From a virus, in the IMG/VR virus record IMGVR_UViG_3300023110_001728, positions 1-30,792 of that record: 30,792 nt of DNA, one strand, 5' to 3'. The notes beneath the pieces were generated by a model, which was not told the origin of the DNA, ran no database searches, and saw nothing but the letters and a program-made list of their open reading frames with translations. Positions 3-30,792 of the stretch are shown piece after piece. Every line of letters starts with the position of its first letter. The stretch's first letter is position 1. Made by a program: the position numbers and the translations under genes.

Positions 3-731
3 CAGAAACATTCAGTACCATTTGATTGCGAGTACGCATCAGGATTGAATGAAAGAATCTTTAAACACATTAAAGATGAAGCATTAGCAGCAACATTAGA
101 AATGGGTAAACGTCGAGGTGAGGCTCCAGATATGAAAGGTACTGGAAGACGTAATGCACATATGTTAGCTATTGCTCCAAACGCAAACTCTTCTATGATT
201 GTAAATACATCTCCAAGTATTGAACCTTGGAAAGCAAATGCATTTACTTCTCGTACAAGAGTAGGTTCTCACCTAAATAAAAATCCATACCTCGAAGCCG
301 AGCTTGAAAAGATTGGAAAGAATAACGAAGAGGTTTGGTCTTCAATTATTACAAACGGTGGTAGTGTACAACATCTTGATTTTTTACATGACCACGTGAA
401 AGAAGTATTTTTAACAGCAATTGAATTAAATCAATTAGCACTTATCAGATTAGCAGGTGAAAGACAAAAGTACCTATGTCAAGGTCAATCACTAAACATC
501 TTCTTCCCTGCAGGGTGTGATAAGAAAACTTTACATCAAGTCCACTATCAAGCGTGGAAACAAGGATGTAAAGGATTATATTATTTAAGAACAGAAACAT
601 CTAACAGAGCAGAGAATGTAGCACAGAAAATTGAAAGAGAAAAGTTAGATGATATTATTAACCCAGACGCAGTAAAATTCAACAACGGTTCAGAGGAGAG
701 TCAAGATGAGTGCGTTGCTTGTCAAGGATAG
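3..731 (+). CDS. nrdA: Ribonucleoside-diphosphate reductase, large subunit, C-terminal part (partial)
   Basis: C-terminal part of the class I ribonucleotide reductase alpha subunit, which reduces NDPs to dNDPs for phage DNA synthesis. The reading frame is open to the left edge, so the 5' end lies outside the window; the first TTG (45) is not the start. Recognisable are the barrel segment around APNANSSMIVNTSPSIEP, the GERQKYLCQGQSLN region, the tyrosine pair in KGLYYLRTE, and a terminal ECVACQG tail whose CxxC is the usual shuttle that passes electrons from glutaredoxin or thioredoxin to the active site. nrdB follows directly with possible overlap, as expected for an nrdAB unit. Identification is firm. 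Confidence 0.95.
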   Translation, partial: QKHSVPFDCEYASGLNERIFKHIKDEALAATLEMGKRRGEAPDMKGTGRRNAHMLAIAPNANSSMIVNTSPSIEPWKANAFTSRTRVGSHLNKNPYLEAELEKIGKNNEEVWSSIITNGGSVQHLDFLHDHVKEVFLTAIELNQLALIRLAGERQKYLCQGQSLNIFFPAGCDKKTLHQVHYQAWKQGCKGLYYLRTETSNRAENVAQKIEREKLDDIINPDAVKFNNGSEESQDECVACQG

Positions 732-735
732 AAAA

Positions 736-1941
736 ATGGATATAACAATTTATACTAAATCAAACTGCCCTTTTTGCGAAAAGGCAAAAGCTTGGTTTAC
801 TCAACATGGTATGAGCTATACTCAAATCATCTTAGATGATGAAGAACAAAGATTAGCTTTTTATCAAAAATTCTCAAATGGTAAAACTGTAAACTCAGTA
901 CCACAAATTTTTATTGATGATAAACATATTGGAACTTACAACGACCTTATGGAAGTAAGTGATACACTGATTAAGAAGCAAGGTGGATTATTAGAATTCT
1001 CTGAAACATATAAGCCATTCCATTATCCTTGGGCAGTCCAAATTACAACAAGACACGAAAAAGCACATTGGATTGAAGATGAACTTGACTTGTCTGAAGA
1101 TGTATCTGATTGGAAAGGTGGTAAGATTACACCTACTGAAAAAGAATATATTACAAACATCTTAAGATTGTTTACTCAATCTGATGTTGCAGTTGGTCAA
1201 AACTATTATGACCAATTTATTCCTAAGTTTAAGAATAACGAAGTACGTAATATGTTAGGTTCCTTTGCAGCTCGTGAAGGTATTCACCAACGTGCTTATG
1301 CTTTATTAAATGAAACACTAGGTTTACCAGACAGTGAATATCACGCATTCCTAGAGTATTCTGAAATGGCTGACAAAATTGAGTACATGAGAAAAGCAGA
1401 TGTTAATACATTAAGAGGTCTTGGTTTATCTCTTGCTAAATCTGTATTCAACGAGGGAGTTGCTCTATTCGCATCTTTCGTAATGCTGTTGAATTTCCAA
1501 AGATTTGGAAAGATGAAAGGTATGGGTAAAGTTGTAGAGTGGAGTATTCGTGATGAAAGTATTCATGTTGAAGGTAACTCAAAACTATTCAAAACATTTT
1601 GTAAAGAACACAGTCGTGTAGTTGATGATTCGTTTAAGAAAGAAATCTATGAGATGTCAAAAGATATCGTTGACCTTGAAGATAAGTTTATTGATTTAGC
1701 TTATGAAATGGGAGAAATCGATGGTCTCCAGAAATCTGAAGTAAAAGAATATATAAGATATATTACAGACAGAAGGCTGCTTCAACTTGGTATGAAGACT
1801 AACTTTAAGGTAAAGGATAATCCTCTTCCTTGGTTAGAATGGGTATTGAATGGTGCTGACCATACAAACTTCTTTGAAAATCGTGTAACTGAATATGAAG
1901 TTGCTGGATTACAAGGGAACTGGGACGAAGCTTACGCCTAA
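736..1941 (+). CDS. nrdB: Glutaredoxin-NrdB fusion: ribonucleotide reductase radical subunit with N-terminal glutaredoxin
   Basis: A fusion of two activities in about 401 residues. Residues 1-80 are a glutaredoxin (CPFC at 11-14, SVPQIFIDD with the cis-proline, then GTYNDL). Residues 95-401 are the class I RNR beta subunit. All di-iron ligands are visible: D150, E181 and H184 with the radical tyrosine Y188 (EGIHQRAY), E240, E274 and H277 (RDESIH). The C-terminus ends in a tyrosine-containing tail that should dock on NrdA. I chose ATG 736 because the glutaredoxin fold begins there and an AAGGAT element precedes it; ATG 706, in frame, has GAGGAG upstream but would overlap nrdA by 26 bases. The fusion presumably delivers the reductant directly to NrdA. 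Confidence 0.93.
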   Translation: MDITIYTKSNCPFCEKAKAWFTQHGMSYTQIILDDEEQRLAFYQKFSNGKTVNSVPQIFIDDKHIGTYNDLMEVSDTLIKKQGGLLEFSETYKPFHYPWAVQITTRHEKAHWIEDELDLSEDVSDWKGGKITPTEKEYITNILRLFTQSDVAVGQNYYDQFIPKFKNNEVRNMLGSFAAREGIHQRAYALLNETLGLPDSEYHAFLEYSEMADKIEYMRKADVNTLRGLGLSLAKSVFNEGVALFASFVMLLNFQRFGKMKGMGKVVEWSIRDESIHVEGNSKLFKTFCKEHSRVVDDSFKKEIYEMSKDIVDLEDKFIDLAYEMGEIDGLQKSEVKEYIRYITDRRLLQLGMKTNFKVKDNPLPWLEWVLNGADHTNFFENRVTEYEVAGLQGNWDEAYA

Positions 1942-1952
1942 AAAGGTGAGCG

Positions 1953-3152
1953 ATGATTGAAAAAGCATATTTTCAGAATGTTATTGATACATTAAAAGAC
2001 GAAGGAAAATATAGAGTCTTTAACGACATAGTGCGTGAAAGAGGCAACTTTCCTAAGGCAACCTGGTATTCTAAATATTCTCCAAAAACAATAGTTAACT
2101 GGTGTTCCAACGATTACTTGTGCATGGGTCAAAACAAATATGTTATTGATGCTATGCAAACCGCGCTCGACAAGACAGGTTCGGGAAGTGGTGGTACAAG
2201 AAATATTGGTGGAACATCTCACTATCACGTTACTCTCGAAAGAACACTAGCAAAACTCCATAAAAAAGAAAAAGGATTATTGTTCACATCAGCTTATGTT
2301 GCTAATGAATGGACGATGATTGCACTATCACGAATCATTCCAAATATTTGTTTCGTATCAGATAATAAAAATCACGCATCATTGATTATGGGTATTAAAC
2401 ATAGTCGTGCTGAAAAAATTATCTGGGAACATAATAACATGGACGAATTAGAGTTGGCATTACAGACAGCTCAAATGAGCAATCAAGTTCCTTGTATTGT
2501 TTTTGAATCAGTGTATAGTATGGACGGAGATGTTGCACCAATCAAAGAAATATGTGACCTTGCAGATAAGTATAATGCAATTACATATATTGATGAAGTT
2601 CATGCAGTAGGACTTTATGGTGACACAGGTGCTGGATATTGTGAAAAATTAGGTCTATCTGATAGAGTCGATATCATAAATGGCACTCTAGGCAAGGCTT
2701 TTGGTGGCCATGGTGGTTATATTGTTGGAGAAGATATTGTCTTAGATGCCATTAGAAGTGTCGCCAGTGGATTTATATTCACCACATCGTTAAGTCCTGT
2801 TATGTGTGCAGGTGCTATTGCTTCAATAAGATGGTTAAAAGAACACAACGAACTTAGAGAACAACATCAAGAACGAGCTCAAACGCTACGTGAACTTTTT
2901 ATAGATAATAATATAGAGGTGCATGAAGCATCTACAACGCATATTCTTCCAGTGATGGTAAGAGATGCAAAAAGAACTAAAGCAATGTCAGATAGGTTAT
3001 TAAACGAGTATGGAATTTATATTCAACCAATTAATTATCCAACAGTCGATGTTGGTACTGAACGACTTAGAATTACACCAACACCATTACACACCAATGG
3101 TATGATGGAAGACCTCGTATCTGCATTGAAGGAGACGTTTAAAGAATTATGA
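1953..3152 (+). CDS. hemA: 5-aminolevulinate synthase (Shemin pathway)
   Basis: PLP enzyme condensing glycine with succinyl-CoA to 5-aminolevulinate, the first step of heme and other tetrapyrroles. At 399 residues it matches full-length alphaproteobacterial ALAS almost end to end. Visible motifs: [10 protein letters not shown] (51-60), [17 protein letters not shown] (76-92), [36 protein letters not shown] with the PLP-binding D214, and [10 protein letters not shown] with Schiff-base lysine K248, the same number I recall for the Rhodobacter enzyme. The [19 protein letters not shown] region near the C-terminus is typical of ALAS rather than of KBL or BioF relatives. The gene starts 11 bases after nrdB with GGTGAG upstream, and its stop overlaps the next start. 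No key residue is missing, so an active enzyme is expected. Confidence 0.94.
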
Positions 3153-4975: not shown

Positions 4976-5323
4976 ATGGCAGATAAGTTCGTGAAAGTGG
5001 AATTAATATCGTCGTTTAGACAAACATACGTAATTCCGTATGAAGCATTACAGGAAATGAATACGAAAGTTCAGTTGACTGATGAGCTCGCATTACAGTG
5101 GGCAGAAGAAAGTGTTATGTGTGAGGAAATAAAAGAACTCGCACAACAATGGATTGGTGAAAATGTATTTGATAAAAGTATAATCAATACTGAACAAGCA
5201 ATCAAACAGTTTCGAAAACAAAACCCAGATTATTCAAAAGAAATGAGTGACGCTCAAGTCGTTGATTGGATTAATGACTGGGAAGACCCAATTGCTAAAG
5301 GGAAGAAGAAAGCAGATGAGTAA
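4976..5323 (+). CDS. Hypothetical protein
   Basis: 115 residues, soluble, with alternating beta-like N-terminus (FVKVELISSFRQTYVIPYEAL) and a helical remainder; the Lys-rich tail KGKKKADE is probably flexible. GTGGAGTG upstream acts as ribosome binding site and the start context is ATTATGG, as for many genes here. The stop overlaps the next gene's ATG. No family recognised with confidence. Confidence 0.75.
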   Translation: MADKFVKVELISSFRQTYVIPYEALQEMNTKVQLTDELALQWAEESVMCEEIKELAQQWIGENVFDKSIINTEQAIKQFRKQNPDYSKEMSDAQVVDWINDWEDPIAKGKKKADE

Positions 5324-5567
5324 GTGGCATGGTGGAAAAGGTAGTAAACCTCGTCCTATAAAAGACATGAAAAAATTTGATTCTGAATGGGACAGGATTT
5401 TTAATAAAGAGAAAAAAGATTTGAATTACGAATCTGACAATCCTTTAGAAAGACCTTTTGAACCTTCACCACCTTCAGCTGTTGATGATGCAGCAGACGT
5501 TATGAGTAAGTATGCTCACCCAGCTTACACAAGATATCCTCATTTAAAGAAAATAATTAAAGAATGA
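5316..5567 (+). CDS. Conserved small T4-like phage protein (SKWHGGKGSKPR type)
   Basis: 83 residues. The start at ATG 5316 is chosen because MSKWHGGKGSKPRPI is the N-terminus I recall from small proteins of marine T4-like phages located near glutaredoxin/RNR genes; upstream in-frame starts would only extend into the preceding gene. The C-terminus is Pro-rich, then YAHPAYTRYPHL. The preceding stop overlaps this start and the next gene's ATG overlaps this stop. Function unknown. Confidence 0.78.
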   Translation: MSKWHGGKGSKPRPIKDMKKFDSEWDRIFNKEKKDLNYESDNPLERPFEPSPPSAVDDAADVMSKYAHPAYTRYPHLKKIIKE

Positions 5568-5818
5568 TAACAATTTATGGAACCGCATCTTGCGGTGCTT
5601 GCATTAATGCAATTAATTTATGTCGAAAAAATAACCTTACATTCAGGTATAAAGACGTAAGTTTCAGACAGCATTATATAGAATGCGAACAACTCGGTGT
5701 TGATATGACAAAAATACCACACATAACAGTTGACAAACACTACATAGGATGTTATAATAGTCTGAAAGAATATATTTGGGAACAAAATGCTAAAAGACAA
5801 GATAATAGAATGGTTTAA
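5564..5818 (+). CDS. nrdC: Glutaredoxin
   Basis: 84-residue glutaredoxin, electron donor for ribonucleotide reductase. Active site C10-G-A-C13 after the ITIYGTAS strand, cis-proline region KIPHITVD, and the glutathione-site segment GCYNSLKEY. The CGAC active site is unusual beside the common CPYC. This is the second glutaredoxin in the window, besides the domain fused to NrdB. The gene starts by ATGA overlap. A perfect sigma70-type promoter lies inside its coding sequence (5730-5758), encoding the conserved VDKHYIGCYNS part. The gene symbol follows T4 usage and is an inference. Confidence 0.88.
   Translation: MITIYGTASCGACINAINLCRKNNLTFRYKDVSFRQHYIECEQLGVDMTKIPHITVDKHYIGCYNSLKEYIWEQNAKRQDNRMV
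5730..5758 (+). promoter_or_regulatory. Strong sigma70-type promoter inside the glutaredoxin gene
   Basis: TTGACA at 5730-5735 and TATAAT at 5753-5758 with a 17-base spacer, preceded by AACAG as in nine other promoters of this window. It would transcribe the small membrane protein at 5787 and the genes after it. Confidence 0.8.
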
Positions 5819-5927
5819 TATTTGTAAGATTCATTGGAAAGAAATCTTTGCACTGAGCTTTGCATTACATTTCGTTATCGACATCTTTGTATTTTGGTTA
5901 GGATTTATTATTGGGAGAATGACATAA
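5787..5927 (+). CDS. Small membrane protein, 46 residues
   Basis: Begins inside the end of the glutaredoxin gene in another frame and ends by overlapping the next ATG (TAATG). The protein has an amphipathic basic N-terminus (MLKDKIIEWFNICKIHWKE) and one hydrophobic helix (IFALSFALHFVIDIFVFWLG). It lies about 22 bases after the predicted transcription start of the internal promoter at 5730. Tiny inner membrane proteins of this form are common in marine T4-like phages (recollection). Function unknown. Confidence 0.7.
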   Translation: MLKDKIIEWFNICKIHWKEIFALSFALHFVIDIFVFWLGFIIGRMT

Positions 5928-6214
5928 TGGCAAAATGGCCTAAAAGAACACCATGGCACGATGGTGAGAGAATAGAATGGAACTTGGATAATGGATACAT
6001 CATTTCGGCTGTAAAATTTACGGGTTCTTATGGATATAAAGAAAATAAGTGGGAACTTGCTATTATAGATAAAGATTTAAAAACATTCGTAGACCCACCT
6101 GCGGATAGAATGGAAAATATATTAGATGACTATCATAAAGCCGATGAAGGCATTTATGGTTATCTAAACGACCCTGATGTGGACAGGATTGTAGAAATGG
6201 TAAAGAGGTTATAA
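5927..6214 (+). CDS. Hypothetical protein
   Basis: 95 residues. The start at ATG 5927 (MAKWPKRTPWHDGERIEW) is chosen over an upstream in-frame possibility because GGGAGAATGACATA just upstream contains a ribosome binding site and the TAATG overlap with the membrane protein gene is typical here. Tryptophan-rich N-terminus, mixed alpha/beta composition, no membrane segment. No family recognised. Confidence 0.75.
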   Translation: MAKWPKRTPWHDGERIEWNLDNGYIISAVKFTGSYGYKENKWELAIIDKDLKTFVDPPADRMENILDDYHKADEGIYGYLNDPDVDRIVEMVKRL

Positions 6215-7399: not shown

Positions 7400-7846
7400 A
7401 TGCCATACTCAAAGAAAGTTATAGAAAGATTCGAAGCAGTTACCAATAACCCTGCTGCACATGGTGTCGGAAGGTTTGACCCTAATGACCCAAACGTTGC
7501 AACGGGACTTACGGGTGCACCTGCATGTGGTGATGTTATGAAATTGGATTTAAAATTAAATCCAGAAACTGAGGTCATCGAAGATGTTAAATTTAAAACT
7601 TATGGATGTGGTTCTGCTATCGCTTCAAGCAGTATGTTCGTTGAAATGTTAATTGGTAAAACCATTGAAGAAGCGAAGAATATTAAAGATAAAGAAATTG
7701 CGGATGCTTTAGAATTACCTCCAATCAAAATTCATTGTTCAGTGTTGGCCGAAGATTCAATCAAACGTGCTATCCAAGATTGGGAAGAAAAGAAAGCAGG
7801 TCGCAATGAAACATGGTTAGAAAAGATGACCATAAAGGAAGATTAA
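7400..7846 (+). CDS. iscU: Fe-S cluster assembly scaffold IscU
   Basis: 148 residues, clearly IscU: the scaffold on which IscS-derived sulfur and iron are built into [2Fe-2S] clusters before transfer by HscA/HscB. The three ligand cysteines are present: C43 (GAPACGD), C70 (KTYGCGSAIASSS) and C113 (IHCSVLAEDSIK), together with the assembly aspartate D45 and the HscA-recognition motif LPPIK at 106-110. It differs from bacterial IscU by about 8 extra residues near position 13-22 (AVTNNPAAHG) and a C-terminal extension of about 20. No iscS, iscA or chaperone gene is near, so it must work with the host machinery. No clear ribosome binding site; start chosen by similarity to the IscU N-terminus. 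Confidence 0.92.
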   Translation: MPYSKKVIERFEAVTNNPAAHGVGRFDPNDPNVATGLTGAPACGDVMKLDLKLNPETEVIEDVKFKTYGCGSAIASSSMFVEMLIGKTIEEAKNIKDKEIADALELPPIKIHCSVLAEDSIKRAIQDWEEKKAGRNETWLEKMTIKED

Positions 7847-20147: not shown

Positions 20148-20681
20148 ATGGCAAAAGACAAAAAATTAATTAGTGAAGCTCTTATGTTTGCGGTAAAAGC
20201 GCATGGAGACCAACGAAGAAAATACACAGGTGAACCTTACATCGTTCACCCAGTTGGTGTCGCGAAAATCCTTGAAGACTCAGTTGAGCACACTGATGAA
20301 ATGATAGTTGCAGCTCTATTACATGATGTAGTAGAAGATACACCTGTAACTTTCCAAGATGTAAAAGAAAAGTTCGGCTCAACAGTTGCTGAATACGTAC
20401 ACTACTGTACGAACGTCTCAGAAAAGGAAGATGGAAACCGTGCATTTCGTAAGAAAATGGATGCGGACCATTTTGCGCTAGGTCCAGCTGAGACTCAAAC
20501 GATTAAGGTTGCGGATTTGATACACAATAGTGAAACTATCATTCCTCACGACCAAAAATTCTTTCATAAAGCTTACAAGCATGAGAAACAGTATCTCTTG
20601 AAAGTATTGACTAAGGCTGACCCAATACTATTAGATAGAGCTCAAACCATCCTCTCAGATGCTTGGGAGCCTTCTAAATAA
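20148..20681 (+). CDS. ppGpp hydrolase (MESH1/SpoT HD domain only)
   Basis: 177 residues, a stand-alone HD hydrolase like MESH1 and small alarmone hydrolases, removing pyrophosphate from (p)ppGpp. Visible: AHGDQRRKYTGEPYIVHP (H34), AALLHDVVEDT with H59-D60 and E63-D64, and IKVADLIHN with D123; together these give the full Mn-binding and catalytic set. No synthetase, TGS or ACT domain. It starts 2 bases after the methyltransferase. A phage enzyme could switch off the host stringent response during infection. ADP-ribose or NADPH substrates of MESH1-type enzymes are the alternative. Confidence 0.88.
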   Translation: MAKDKKLISEALMFAVKAHGDQRRKYTGEPYIVHPVGVAKILEDSVEHTDEMIVAALLHDVVEDTPVTFQDVKEKFGSTVAEYVHYCTNVSEKEDGNRAFRKKMDADHFALGPAETQTIKVADLIHNSETIIPHDQKFFHKAYKHEKQYLLKVLTKADPILLDRAQTILSDAWEPSK

Positions 20682-24726: not shown

Positions 24727-25884
24727 TTGAGAATTGATAACGAAATAAAGCTTGACTATAAGGATGTTTTAATTCAACCAAAACGGTCAACACTTGGAAG
24801 TCGTAAAGAAGTAGATTTATATCGTGGATTTACTTTTCGTAATTATGAACCACCAGAAATGTCGATAGAATCTATCCGCGCGTCTGGAGAAACTCCGCAC
24901 TATTATGGTATTCCTATTATGGCTGCCAATATGGACGGAGTAGGAACGATGGAAATGGCTGACACTCTTTCGAAACAAGGATTGTTTACCACTCTAGTGA
25001 AAACATATAGTGAAGATGAATTGATTGCATTCTATAATGACGACCAAATTCTTCGTACTGAATTTGTAGCATATAGCATGGGCATTAGTGATGAAGATTT
25101 AACTAAATTCATTAAGGTTTACACATACAATAGAGAGTCGATTAAGTATGTCTGTGTAGATGTTGCAAATGGATATAGTAGTAGATTTAGAGATTTCATC
25201 GCAACCCTCAGAGAAAAGGCACCAAACATCGTCATTATTGCTGGTAACGTAGTAACAAAAGAAATGACAGAGGAGTTAATTTTAAGTGGAGCAGATATCG
25301 TTAAAGTCGGCATTGGTCCTGGGAGTGTATGTACTACTCGTATTCAGACTGGGGTGGGTTACCCTCAACTCTCTGCGGTCATCGAGTGTGCTGACGCGGC
25401 GCATGGTCTTGGAGGACATATCATTGCTGACGGTGGGTGTACTAATCCTGGTGATGTATGTAAAGCATTTGCCGCAGGAGCAGATTTTGTAATGTTGGGT
25501 GGAATGCTCGCAGGACATGATGAAGGTGGTGGTAATGTAATTACTGAATCTATTATTTCAAACGTGCAGGCGCCCGCTACGTCCGCGGGGATTGGTAAAC
25601 GTATTGAGAAACAATTTGTAGAGTTTTATGGTATGAGTTCTAAATCTGCTAATGATAAACACTTTGGTGGATTAAAAGAGTATAGAGCGAGTGAAGGTCG
25701 TACAGTAAGAGTTCCTTATAGAGGTGCTGTACAAAATACTATTAATGATATTTTAGGTGGCTTACGTAGTGCATGTACATATGCAGGGGCCGCAAAGCTT
25801 AAACATTTAAATAAGTGTGCAACGTTTGTTCGTTGTACTCAAACACATAACTCAGTTTATGAATCATCTACAATAGGAGTATAG
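24727..25884 (+). CDS. guaC: GMP reductase
   Basis: 385 residues, IMPDH/GMPR family, closest to Gua[45 protein letters not shown] with catalytic C202, [33 protein letters not shown] and RSACTYAGA. It converts GMP to IMP with NADPH, feeding guanine nucleotides back to adenine. No CBS domains, as usual for GMPR. It is about 40 residues longer than E. coli GuaC through inserts near 41-60 and 271-297; the second is GC-rich in sequence. Start is TTG 24727, with AAGGAGAG 5-12 bases before. Confidence 0.94.
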
Positions 25885-27188: not shown

Positions 27189-27219
27189 AAGGGAGTCGAA
27201 AGGCTCCCTTATCTTTTTT
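27189..27219. terminator. Bidirectional terminator between converging genes
   Basis: AAGGGAGTC (27189-27197), loop GAAA, GGCTCCCTT (27202-27210), then ATCTTTTTT. On the minus strand the stem is preceded by the minus-strand gene's last codons, whose TAA stop lies in the stem. The minus-strand U-tract is poor, so function is clearest for plus-strand transcripts. Confidence 0.82.
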
Positions 27220-27880
27220 CGCACTGTCTCTCGGCTTTATTAATTAATCTAAAATTATTTGCTACAACAAGTCCAGTTGAAACGCCTGCACCTAATTTCC
27301 AATCATACCAAAAGGTATCATCACCATCTAAAACAAATTTTATTCCACCAATAACACCTAACTTTAAACCGACCATTTCATGTACTTCTGGAACTTCAGG
27401 TAATAAAGGATTCGCTTCAGTTAAACAAGAATACTTCATACCTTTATAAGTTGAATATACATCGAGTATCTGTGTGGTCCAAAAGAATAAATCAATCCAT
27501 CTTTTTTCTCTTTCATTCCAATAAAATTCTGGAGAGGACATGTCAAGATTTAAATTTATACTATTTTCTGAGAATTGTGGGGTTGGTTTCTTTTCCTTAA
27601 ACTTTGGGTGATGCATTAAATCTTTTAGAGGAGGAACAAGTTCTGGTCCGTGTGGTAAAGTAATAATAGCACCGTTTTCCATTATTCGAGCTTTACCTAC
27701 AACAACTCGACGAACATATGCGTCATCATAAGGTGCGGTATGACCTGCTTTGAATTTTGCAATCATTGCAGGGTCAACGTAAGTTGGATAAAATTTTTGT
27801 TTTGGTATGTAAGCTTCAGCTGGAAGTGCTAATAAAAGAACTCCAATTAATAACTTATTTAGTCGTAGCAATAAAGACAC
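27209..27880 (-). CDS. Secreted or membrane protein, unknown function
   Basis: 223 residues. Signal peptide of about 23 residues (LNKLLIGVLLLALPAEA, then YIPKQ). The central part is hydrophilic (HPKFKEKKPTPQFSENSINL), and the C-terminal third (FFWTTQILDVYSTYKGMKY, EANPLLPEVPEVHEMVGLK) resembles the membrane proteins with an xxANPLLP segment (DUF5658-like), a weak match. Its start overlaps the cyclase gene by 26 bases, so the two are co-transcribed and possibly coupled. A role with the cyclase or curlin protein at the envelope is inferred from position only. Confidence 0.78.
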   Translation of the reverse strand: MSLLLRLNKLLIGVLLLALPAEAYIPKQKFYPTYVDPAMIAKFKAGHTAPYDDAYVRRVVVGKARIMENGAIITLPHGPELVPPLKDLMHHPKFKEKKPTPQFSENSINLNLDMSSPEFYWNEREKRWIDLFFWTTQILDVYSTYKGMKYSCLTEANPLLPEVPEVHEMVGLKLGVIGGIKFVLDGDDTFWYDWKLGAGVSTGLVVANNFRLINKAERQCEKR

Positions 27881-29897
27881 CGTTCCAATCCTTCGGTAAA
27901 TCTTGCGTTTTCATATATTCGCAACGCTCAATCCACATCTTGTAGTAACCTTCCATCTGACCTTCAAAACATTCCATAAGGTCGTTACATATTTTAATAG
28001 CTTTATCGAAGTTTTGTTTACGGTAATTCTGATGCATTGCTTCATGCATCTCGGCCGGTTTAATATATTTATTCTTATCAAGGTCTAATACTGTGTATAT
28101 TCCAATTCCTACTGTTTTTCCTTTTACTGCAAGGTCGTCTACTTTAAGGAAAAAGAAATCATTAGGAGAACATCGTTTAACTGTTTCTTCGCCAACTAAT
28201 AATAAGCAACCATATTCTTTACATTTTGACTCAATTCGTGCAGCAGTTGAAACGCTGTCACCAAGTACATCATAACTGTGTCGTTCTGTAGAACCCATCT
28301 CACCAAGATAACCAAGACCAGTGTTAATCCCAGCCCCCATGCCAATTGGTGGTCGACCTTCTGCTGTAATCTTTTCATTGAATTTTTCTACACTCCTTAG
28401 CATATTGATTCCAGTTTGTACTGCAGTTTTAGGATGTTCAGGGTCGTCAATAGGCGCATTGTGTATGTGCATCGAAGCATCGCCTATATACTTTATAATC
28501 ATTCCATCAGCGTTAAGGACAGGCTCAGTGATTGAATCCATATACCCATTCATTAACTTCGTTAATCCTTGTACGTCATCTCCGAAGCTTTCACCCAGTG
28601 GTGTAAATCCTCTTAAATCAGAAAAACAAATACTAATTTCTTTTTTCATTCCCTCTTTAACGAGAGAAGGATTCTCTTGGAGTAAACGAACGACTGTAGG
28701 AGAAGCATAACCAGCGAACTGTTTTGCTAGTTGACGTTTCTCTAAAAATGTGATAAAATACTTGTTAAAACTTGATTGGGCAAAAACTACTAAGGAAGCA
28801 AATGAACTTAAGGTCGCGTCAACAAAGATTAAAGCATCATTCCAGAGATACAATGATACTCCATAAGAACCGCAAATCAGAATTAGACTCTTTATCACCC
28901 CAAGAGTTATGGGCAAGATATAGACCGCTCCAAGGATACCTAGACTCAATAACACCAGAAGACCGAGCTCGGCTATTGGCTTCCAGTCGGGAATCTGTAT
29001 TTCGACTCCTGAAAGAACGGTCTGAATTAAATGACCTTGAACTTCGTGGGGATACACTGCACCCAATGGGGTTGCAACTGGATTAGCATATCCTTCAGCT
29101 GTAATACCAAAGATTAAAACTTTACCTTCGGGTAATGGGTCTAATATACTGACTTGTTCGAATTCATTCCAGAAAGCTATAGGGACTTCTGCGAAGGAGT
29201 TTGTAGTGATTGGGTCTTGTCGACCCATGCGAATCCATTCGACACCATTGGTGCCTACTTTCATTTGATAGCTTGGTTCTCCGGTGTACACACGTAGTGT
29301 GTCGAGGGCGAGAGATGGATAGGGATTCCCGGCTGCTTTAACAACGAGGGGTGCTCTTCGCACGACACCTGTTGGTTCATCAGGAATAGCAACGGTGGCC
29401 CCAACACCAAAAACCCAATTAGAAAGAGATTCAATAGGGTACAAAAGGCCTGGAAATTCATACAACCAATTTTCATCTTGTTCTCCAAAAGTGGCAACAC
29501 CTACAAAGGTTCCTATTCCACCAGATGTTTGTTGTGTGGGTGCTGATGATAATACAACAGCTCTATTGGCCAGTGCTTCTGCAAGTTCGTTATCTTCACC
29601 AAATCTATCTTCTTCAGAATATATTATGTTTAAGACATAAAGAGAATCAGCAGGACCAGCATTAATGAAATCAGCAATGTTCCCCCTAGGCCAAGGATAT
29701 TGGCCTTGTGCTCTGATAGCTCTTTCGTCAATGTTGACGAGGACGATATCCTCCGACGCAATTTTTTCCTTTTTTGAATGGAGATAGTCATAATAAGAAT
29801 ACTCTATACTTTGAATAAAATTTGGGTTTGATATTTGTAACGCTGAAAAACCAGCAATGGTGAATAATACCGTCCACCACTTTGTTAACCATTTCAT
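27855..29897 (-). CDS. CHASE2-domain class III adenylate cyclase
   Basis: 680 residues. Membrane helix 6-22; CHASE2 sensor about 25-300 (VLVNIDERAIRAQGQYPWPR, LYVLNIIYSEEDRFGED), outside the inner membrane; three helices at about 308-378; then a class III cyclase domain about 415-605. Metal aspartates D427 (CFSDLRGFT) and D473 (KYIGDASMH); adenine-type K469 and D543 (YDVLGDSVS); catalytic R554. The transition-state Asn usually found in the GDxVNxAAR motif is Ser (S550). C-terminal extension 606-680 is helical and looks TPR-like. It would make cAMP in response to an outer signal, if active. Such multi-domain sensors are typical of alphaproteobacteria, so transfer from a host is likely. Confidence 0.92.
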   Translation of the reverse strand: MKWLTKWWTVLFTIAGFSALQISNPNFIQSIEYSYYDYLHSKKEKIASEDIVLVNIDERAIRAQGQYPWPRGNIADFINAGPADSLYVLNIIYSEEDRFGEDNELAEALANRAVVLSSAPTQQTSGGIGTFVGVATFGEQDENWLYEFPGLLYPIESLSNWVFGVGATVAIPDEPTGVVRRAPLVVKAAGNPYPSLALDTLRVYTGEPSYQMKVGTNGVEWIRMGRQDPITTNSFAEVPIAFWNEFEQVSILDPLPEGKVLIFGITAEGYANPVATPLGAVYPHEVQGHLIQTVLSGVEIQIPDWKPIAELGLLVLLSLGILGAVYILPITLGVIKSLILICGSYGVSLYLWNDALIFVDATLSSFASLVVFAQSSFNKYFITFLEKRQLAKQFAGYASPTVVRLLQENPSLVKEGMKKEISICFSDLRGFTPLGESFGDDVQGLTKLMNGYMDSITEPVLNADGMIIKYIGDASMHIHNAPIDDPEHPKTAVQTGINMLRSVEKFNEKITAEGRPPIGMGAGINTGLGYLGEMGSTERHSYDVLGDSVSTAARIESKCKEYGCLLLVGEETVKRCSPNDFFFLKVDDLAVKGKTVGIGIYTVLDLDKNKYIKPAEMHEAMHQNYRKQNFDKAIKICNDLMECFEGQMEGYYKMWIERCEYMKTQDLPKDWNGVFIATTK

Positions 29898-29898
29898 T

Positions 29899-30213
29899 TT
29901 AACTAAACTTCTTTTGGATATACTTTACTGCTGCATATAATGTTAAACCATATACTGCGAAAATTGTTAATGGTACTGCCATATTTAAAATAGTCCAAAT
30001 ATCCAAGAACAATAAATCCGTTGTGAAATCTATAATTGCTTCAGCATCGCCCATCGGCTCAACTTGGAATGTTTCTGTATTATAATACATATCAGCTTCA
30101 GAAAGCATTTGGTTAAATCCTTCTTCGGTTAAACAAATCATATCTTGAGGGCAACCTTCATCACCCGGATATAATGTTCCTACTGGATTTCCAAAATCAT
30201 CTAACTCTTGCAT
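29899..30213 (-). CDS. Small membrane protein between curlin and cyclase genes
   Basis: 104 residues. Start is the ATG overlapping the curlin-like stop (TAATG on the minus strand); an upstream start would overlap more. N-terminal part has a cysteine pair (GCPQDMIC), then acidic EEGFNQMLSEADM, then a C-terminal membrane helix (about 70-95, WTILNMAVPLTIFAVYGLTL) with a basic end KKFS. The N-terminal domain is probably outside, anchored by the tail. It begins right after the curlin-like gene and ends one base before the cyclase gene. Family unknown. Confidence 0.75.
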   Translation of the reverse strand: MQELDDFGNPVGTLYPGDEGCPQDMICLTEEGFNQMLSEADMYYNTETFQVEPMGDAEAIIDFTTDLLFLDIWTILNMAVPLTIFAVYGLTLYAAVKYIQKKFS

Positions 30214-30792
30214 TATTCTTGTAGCACATTCACTGAGCAACCACCAACTGTATAACAATCCACTGATAAATTGTATGTTTGATTGGTTGTGCTATTTTGT
30301 CTAATAGTTGCTGTCGTTCCGTAAATACCATCTAAGGTAATATTTGCTGAGTGAGTTGCGTTAGCTCCTTTCTGTCTAAATGTTAAAACGTTGTCTGAAT
30401 TATAAAGTGTAATGTTTGCTTCTTTTGCGCCTGAAGATTGTTGTCTTCCATCTATCCAATTATCAGACCCAGCAACATGTAAGTTAAAATCATGTCCGTC
30501 AGTTGCATCACTTTGATTTGTTTGATGCCATTCAACAAAGTTATCATTACCATATAAATCTATTTCCATATAATGACCACCGCCTTCGGCACCATCATAG
30601 TTCCAACCTTGTGTGGTGTTATCAAAAGCAACACCTTGACCCAATTTAAATTCGTTACCTGTTCCACTGATTTCATCAAATACTATTGTGTTATCATTAC
30701 CTGCAGTATTATATTGAACAACTAATAAATCTAACGATGACGCGTTAATATACGAATATTGGTCTAACATTTTAATTTCGTTATCAGCACCG
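30213..30792 (-). CDS. Curlin-repeat (CsgA/B-like) fibre protein, partial
   Basis: At least 192 residues; the frame is open to the right edge (codons GADNEIKM before the first ATG at 30770), so the N-terminus is outside the window. It has repeats of about 20-25 residues around x-G-x-D-N-x-[IV]-x-x-x-Q: AGNDNTIVFDEIS, YGNDNFVEWHQTNQS, AGSDNWIDGRQQS, YNSDNVLTFRQKGAN and NITLDGIYGTTATIRQN. Such Asn/Gln ladders are the hallmark of curlin-associated repeats, forming beta-helical amyloid fibres on cell surfaces. The C-terminus carries two cysteines (DCYTVGGCS). I recall curli genes in some marine T4-like phages; not checked. Confidence 0.85.
   Translation of the reverse strand, partial: GADNEIKMLDQYSYINASSLDLLVVQYNTAGNDNTIVFDEISGTGNEFKLGQGVAFDNTTQGWNYDGAEGGGHYMEIDLYGNDNFVEWHQTNQSDATDGHDFNLHVAGSDNWIDGRQQSSGAKEANITLYNSDNVLTFRQKGANATHSANITLDGIYGTTATIRQNSTTNQTYNLSVDCYTVGGCSVNVLQE

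Follow-up and report, generated by a model that had tools for sequence, protein, structure and literature searches.

The window analysed here, a 30.8-kb virus record with T4-like phage genes, encodes a membrane-bound class III cyclase that is probably active and appears from its sequence to be a phage-specific active-site variant of the known cyclase of phage curli modules. Its gene is the 'AC' published in 2022 as the last gene of the curli (T8SS) operon in marine phages, among them Melnitz and HTVC008M. The product is most likely an ATP cyclase gated by FecR and CHASE2. As far as the literature shows, five observations are new: the split of the phage cyclases into D543/S550 and S543/N550 types, the exchange of these types, the constraint on the cyclase domain, the co-divergence of FecR and CHASE2, and the absence of class I and III cyclases and of Crp-type receptors from the sampled SAR11 genomes.

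The protein starts with a helix (residues 7-23) and continues with CHASE2 (about 21-319), helices between 306 and 394, the cyclase domain (417-605) and a tail (606-680) that ends in DWNGVFIATTK and is common to alphaproteobacterial CHASE2 cyclases. Pfam detected CHASE2 at 21-319 with E 1.4e-28 (100.6 bits vs a cut-off of 26.3) and Guanylate_cyc at 417-595 with E 2.6e-16 (60.2 bits vs 21.9). In the AlphaFold model (pLDDT 85), the N-terminal helix 7-23 is followed by an ectodomain to about residue 305, by helices 306-327, 330-355 and 362-394 and then by the cyclase, whose fold has matches in the PDB to CyaC, CyaB, Cya2 and Rv1625c. The protein qualifies as a CHASE2 receptor by its ectodomain, which scores above the Pfam cut-off and precedes three transmembrane helices, and as a class III cyclase by Guanylate_cyc above the cut-off together with the cyclase fold. 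The first-pass annotation, which had described a phage-coded protein with CHASE2, three helices and a class III cyclase, was thereby borne out. Its residue numbers also agreed exactly with the sequence: the metal-binding D427 and D473, the purine pair K469/D543 and the transition-state R554 are all present. The transition-state Asn of class III cyclases is replaced in the motif YDVLGDSVSTAAR by S550, a residue fixed in one clade, and a check for a register error found no Asn one register away. Because residues 535-544 have a pLDDT below 50, the model does not resolve the active-site geometry.

Table 1. Features of the cyclase locus and other genes in the window.
Feature	Position	Strand	Remarks
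CHASE2 / three-helix / class III cyclase gene	27855..29897	(-)	680 aa; ORF, Pfam, AlphaFold model
Codons 542-554, YDVLGDSVSTAAR: D543 (predicted adenine contact), S550 (site of the conserved Asn), R554	28236..28274	(-)	
Codons 467-473, IIKYIGD: K469 (predicted adenine contact), metal-binding D473	28479..28499	(-)	
Codon of metal-binding D427 (FSDLRGFT)	28617..28619	(-)	
Second curlin-repeat protein of the operon	30213..30792	(-)	cut by the window end; L002 orthologue 245 aa
104-aa protein, one C-terminal transmembrane helix	29899..30213	(-)	between curlin and cyclase
DUF5658-like membrane protein, likely signal peptide	27209..27880	(-)	Pfam E 0.0039, below cut-off
Glutaredoxin-NrdB fusion	706-1941	(+)	
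5-aminolevulinate synthase	1953-3152	(+)	TIGR01821, 559 bits vs cut-off 339
IscU-like scaffold	7400-7846	(+)	
Small RelA/SpoT-type HD protein	20148-20681	(+)	
GMP reductase	24727-25884	(+)	

The order CsgF-CsgG-curlin-FecR-curlin-cyclase was found in almost all related loci whose upstream DNA is long enough to show it, including those of Melnitz and HTVC008M. The window breaks off within the second curlin gene; the terminal position of the cyclase in the operon is seen in L002, a 90%-identical relative, and in almost all of the complete loci. In L002, Pfam confirmed CsgF, CsgG and FecR, and the curlin repeat scored slightly under the cut-off. In three loci (L019, L021 and L022), the curli genes run in the opposite orientation to the cyclase, so that the cyclase is divergently placed. 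The curli context and the FecR partner provide the best leads to function and had been missed in the first-pass annotation. In the clade of the window, a gene for a 104-aa single-helix protein often separates curlin from cyclase. The start codon of this gene shares bases with the curlin stop (TAATG), and 1 nt lies between its stop and the ATG of the cyclase gene. A frameshift at the curlin/104-aa boundary was ruled out, since L002 has the same two ORFs, and the boundary is a real stop-start overlap. Downstream of the cyclase in the operon, the DUF5658-like gene overlaps the cyclase 3' end by 26 bp. These gene overlaps suggest translational coupling. No Rfam RNAs, riboswitches included, were detected within the window.

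Among the other genes of the window, the 5-aminolevulinate synthase had best matches of only about 35% identity in 50,697 phage records, and the annotated ones were other oxoamine synthases; a phage HemA therefore seems unusual. In a close relative (L062), a uroporphyrinogen decarboxylase (HemE-like) gene lies between the second curlin and the cyclase (5070-6005, (+)) and adds a second gene of the haem pathway to this phage group.

The distribution of the serine was followed in 158 non-redundant phage homologues, of which 87 carry D543 with S550 and 71 carry S543 with N550; intermediates were not found (0 of 158). At positions 468/477/543/550, the Ser type reads I, H, D, S and the Asn type D, A (once C, once G), S, N, and S550 came together with D543, I468 and H477 in 87 of 87 cases. 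The metal, phosphate and purine residues as well as R554 are invariant across the Ser-type clade. A sequencing error or a recent lesion was ruled out as the source of S550 by its fixation across the 87 homologues. All 54 aligned cellular relatives carry S/T543 with N550, so that the Ser form appears to be phage-only so far. The near bacterial relatives have Ser or Thr at 543, and D543 is therefore, as judged from the alignment, a derived change that accompanies S550 and not a retained residue. The first-pass annotation was right about the presence of an adenine-type D543 and wrong in calling this residue 'kept'. No Ser-type cellular source was found among the best hits aligned from 289, 399 and 199 sampled genomes; a rarer cellular Ser form is possible. 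Three Ser-type matches came from genome contigs (L084, L085 and L086), all of which carry phage-type genes and phage-type curli operons inside MAGs. These contigs were binned as Rhodobacteraceae and Pirellulales, and the respective MAGs probably contain phage sequence.

The gene had been called rare for a phage. This holds among deposited phages, of which 9 of 50,697 records match the cyclase protein (6 of the 9 over at least 80% of the protein), but not among marine phage contigs, where two scans gave 491 and at least 585 related stretches. The gene is conserved in related phages, and an objection from lack of conservation, anticipated in the annotation, falls away.

The cyclase is the most constrained domain of the protein and is under strong purifying selection. 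Among 33 Ser-type genes, the median pairwise identity was 84% for the cyclase and 36% for CHASE2, and in the window's own clade dN/dS was 0.05 and 0.19, respectively, with synonymous sites near saturation for some pairs. The high identity and low dN/dS of the cyclase argue against a decaying enzyme. The low dN/dS is also hard to reconcile with a passenger gene that came with the curli operon from alphaproteobacteria and has no role in the phage. An alphaproteobacterial origin of the phage curli modules, which contain cyclase and FecR, is likely according to Wittmers et al. 2022 (PMC9599517), and a missing receptor in 12 phage records would fit a passenger as well; still, the operon is well kept, dN/dS is low throughout (0.05-0.19) and related stretches number in the hundreds in marine phage contigs, which makes this explanation highly improbable.

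The two cyclase types have apparently replaced each other on common CHASE2 sensors some three times, repeatedly among related phages. In the cyclase tree, each type forms a single clade; in the CHASE2 tree, the cyclase type switches at least three times, and at least two of these switches are forced by strongly supported branches (quick tree, with support by SH-aLRT only). In L014 and L074, a sensor resembling that of the window (74%) is joined to an Asn cyclase, which shares 38% identity with the window's cyclase and 65% with that of HTVC008M; conversely, L060 and L298 combine a sensor of the HTVC008M group (76%) with a Ser-type cyclase. Both swapped forms occur in pairs of contigs, each pair from different samples. 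The join between sensor and cyclase lies near residue 390, directly past the last helix. The DUF5658-like gene stays with the window-type CHASE2 even where the cyclase type is swapped (L014 and L074). As each domain replaces the other under one sensor, the two output domains most likely have a common function. The low dN/dS and the exchange of domains are evidence that the cyclase domain is in use but do not reveal its product.

S550 is a fixed phage variant and not damage, and the repeated swapping of the Ser form with the ordinary version suggests that the cyclase still works. The loss of the Asn could otherwise point to a pseudo-cyclase or a weak cyclase, a domain that merely dimerises or signals by contact and makes little product. 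The Asn is almost universally present, and it matters in mammalian cyclases (Yan 1997, as cited in PMC4215837); its replacement by Ser is found in more than half of the phage homologues. Such a domain is nevertheless unlikely in view of the invariant metal, phosphate and purine residues and R554, the conservation of the cyclase above all other domains and its replacement of, and by, the Asn type. In addition, Ma1120 of M. avium, with a K/D pair and Ala for Asn, is active and loses its activity when Asn is introduced (PMC4215837). By analogy with this enzyme, the transition-state Asn is not strictly defining for class III cyclases. Of the two options offered in the first-pass annotation, reduced activity or a Ser that substitutes for Asn, the second is thus favoured on present sequence evidence, and a reduced turnover is still conceivable.

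The FecR-domain protein of the operon is the candidate partner of the sensor. With CsgG and CsgF corrected for, FecR distances correlated with those of CHASE2 (partial r 0.56; 0 of 2000 permutations), and the distances of CsgG and CsgF did not correlate with those of CHASE2 once corrected for FecR. Linkage may contribute to this co-divergence because FecR is closer to the cyclase gene than CsgG and CsgF are. In bacteria, a FecR gene adjoins the CHASE2 cyclase in six of six plasmid loci examined, one of them also with a Crp gene. On chromosomes, only 3 of 20 loci show this arrangement, so that general adjacency is weaker than the plasmid loci implied. The cyclase is probably gated by FecR.

The explanation that we favour, with moderate confidence, is an active FecR/CHASE2-gated cyclase that serves as membrane receptor and output enzyme of the phage curli module. 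The periplasmic CHASE2 would sense a partner, most likely the FecR-domain protein, and through it monitor the condition of the envelope or the export of curlin via CsgG/CsgF. Judging from the architecture, the bundle of three helices, together with the long helix that reaches residue 394, would relay the signal to the cyclase, which would work as a homodimer. In the step that has support, the active cyclase would turn ATP into cAMP, with the metals bound by D427/D473, the adenine by K469/D543 and the phosphates by R539 and K592/K594, while R554 would serve the transition state. S550, standing where the Asn would be, would belong to a re-set active site that has become fixed in a single phage lineage. 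The messenger would finally be read by a putative host protein; a search of the phages and of the sampled SAR11 genomes gave no standard receptor.

A cNMP-binding domain is absent from 12 phage records, among them the complete isolates Melnitz and HTVC008M, and no phage-encoded cAMP receptor was found in these records. On the host side, 78 genomes of one order (that of G209) were searched, which we take to be SAR11 from an exact match to the 16S probe SAR11-441R and from genome size. No class III cyclase, no class I cyclase and, in a search aimed at Crp-type receptors, no HTH_Crp_2 above the cut-off was found in these genomes. A cNMP-binding domain occurs in only 5 of the 78, within a frame of 870 aa that does not look like a Crp protein; in this protein (L304-L308), the domain is apparently joined to an acyltransferase-like part. 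The host of HTVC008M belongs to the SAR11 order, Melnitz is an OM43 phage, and the RNase H of the window phage is nearest to that of Melnitz (53%). A resetting of host catabolite control, as proposed in the first-pass annotation, does not fit SAR11 because the sampled genomes have neither class I/III cyclases nor Crp-type receptors and the 12 phages have no cNMP-binding domain; it is unlikely for SAR11 hosts. More tentatively, the phage might bring a complete sensor-gated second-messenger pathway into hosts without cAMP signalling of their own, with a phage-evolved D/S site and a receptor of a novel kind.

The re-set site might also make another cyclic nucleotide (e.g. cGMP, cCMP or cUMP), perhaps a defence-related signal as in Pycsar. 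The joint difference of four active-site positions, the match of the cyclase domain to the PADLOC PycC models (E 3e-15) and the missing Crp-type cAMP reader in the sampled SAR11 genomes would agree with this. However, the pair K469/D543 is the usual one for ATP selection, the PycC match reflects a class III domain common to many cyclases, and the 12 phage records hold no cNMP-binding effector, so that a different product is rather improbable. A Pycsar anti-phage system, which consists of a cyclase and a cNMP-binding effector, is not supported, given the same lack of an effector domain in these 12 records.

The sea is rich in phage curli operons, whose purpose is a matter of dispute, and the cyclase provides a testable handle on this question. 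It combines a diversifying sensor with a frozen, interchangeable output, in hosts (at least SAR11) without a known cAMP source or Crp receptor. It is also a natural experiment on whether the 'essential' class III Asn is needed when the purine pair changes too.

The closest known system is the pelagiphage curli cyclase (Melnitz gp103; HTVC008M AGE60353; PMC9599517), which is the same gene at the same operon-end place. The cyclase of Melnitz, a phage described by Buchholz et al. 2022 (PMC9004378), is 52% identical to the window protein over its full length; that of HTVC008M is of the Asn type, unlike the Ser type of the window. CHASE2, the D/S active site and the exchange of cyclase types are not mentioned in the accessible part of Wittmers et al. 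2022 (PMC9599517), and in the full-text literature on CHASE2 cyclases in phages no paper treating this gene was found. Alphaproteobacterial CHASE2 cyclases share CHASE2, three helices and the class III cyclase with the window protein, most of them have a DWxGVF tail and a FecR gene is sometimes adjacent; the aligned ones carry S/T543 with N550 at about 23-30% overall identity. In S. meliloti, the CHASE2 cyclases CyaD1, CyaD2 and CyaK work with the outer-membrane protein NsrA and the Crp-family receptor Clr (PMC13001267), a receptor type not found in the sampled SAR11 genomes. Ma1120 (PMC4215837) resembles the window protein in its K/D purine pair, a small residue in place of Asn and the retained Arg, and differs in that this residue is Ala and not Ser and in having no close relation to it. 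The BiofilmReg system of Burkholderia (PMC5192318), which is linked to biofilm, likewise pairs a FecR-domain periplasmic protein with a CHASE2 receptor, but its output is a histidine kinase with a response regulator and it has no curli genes.
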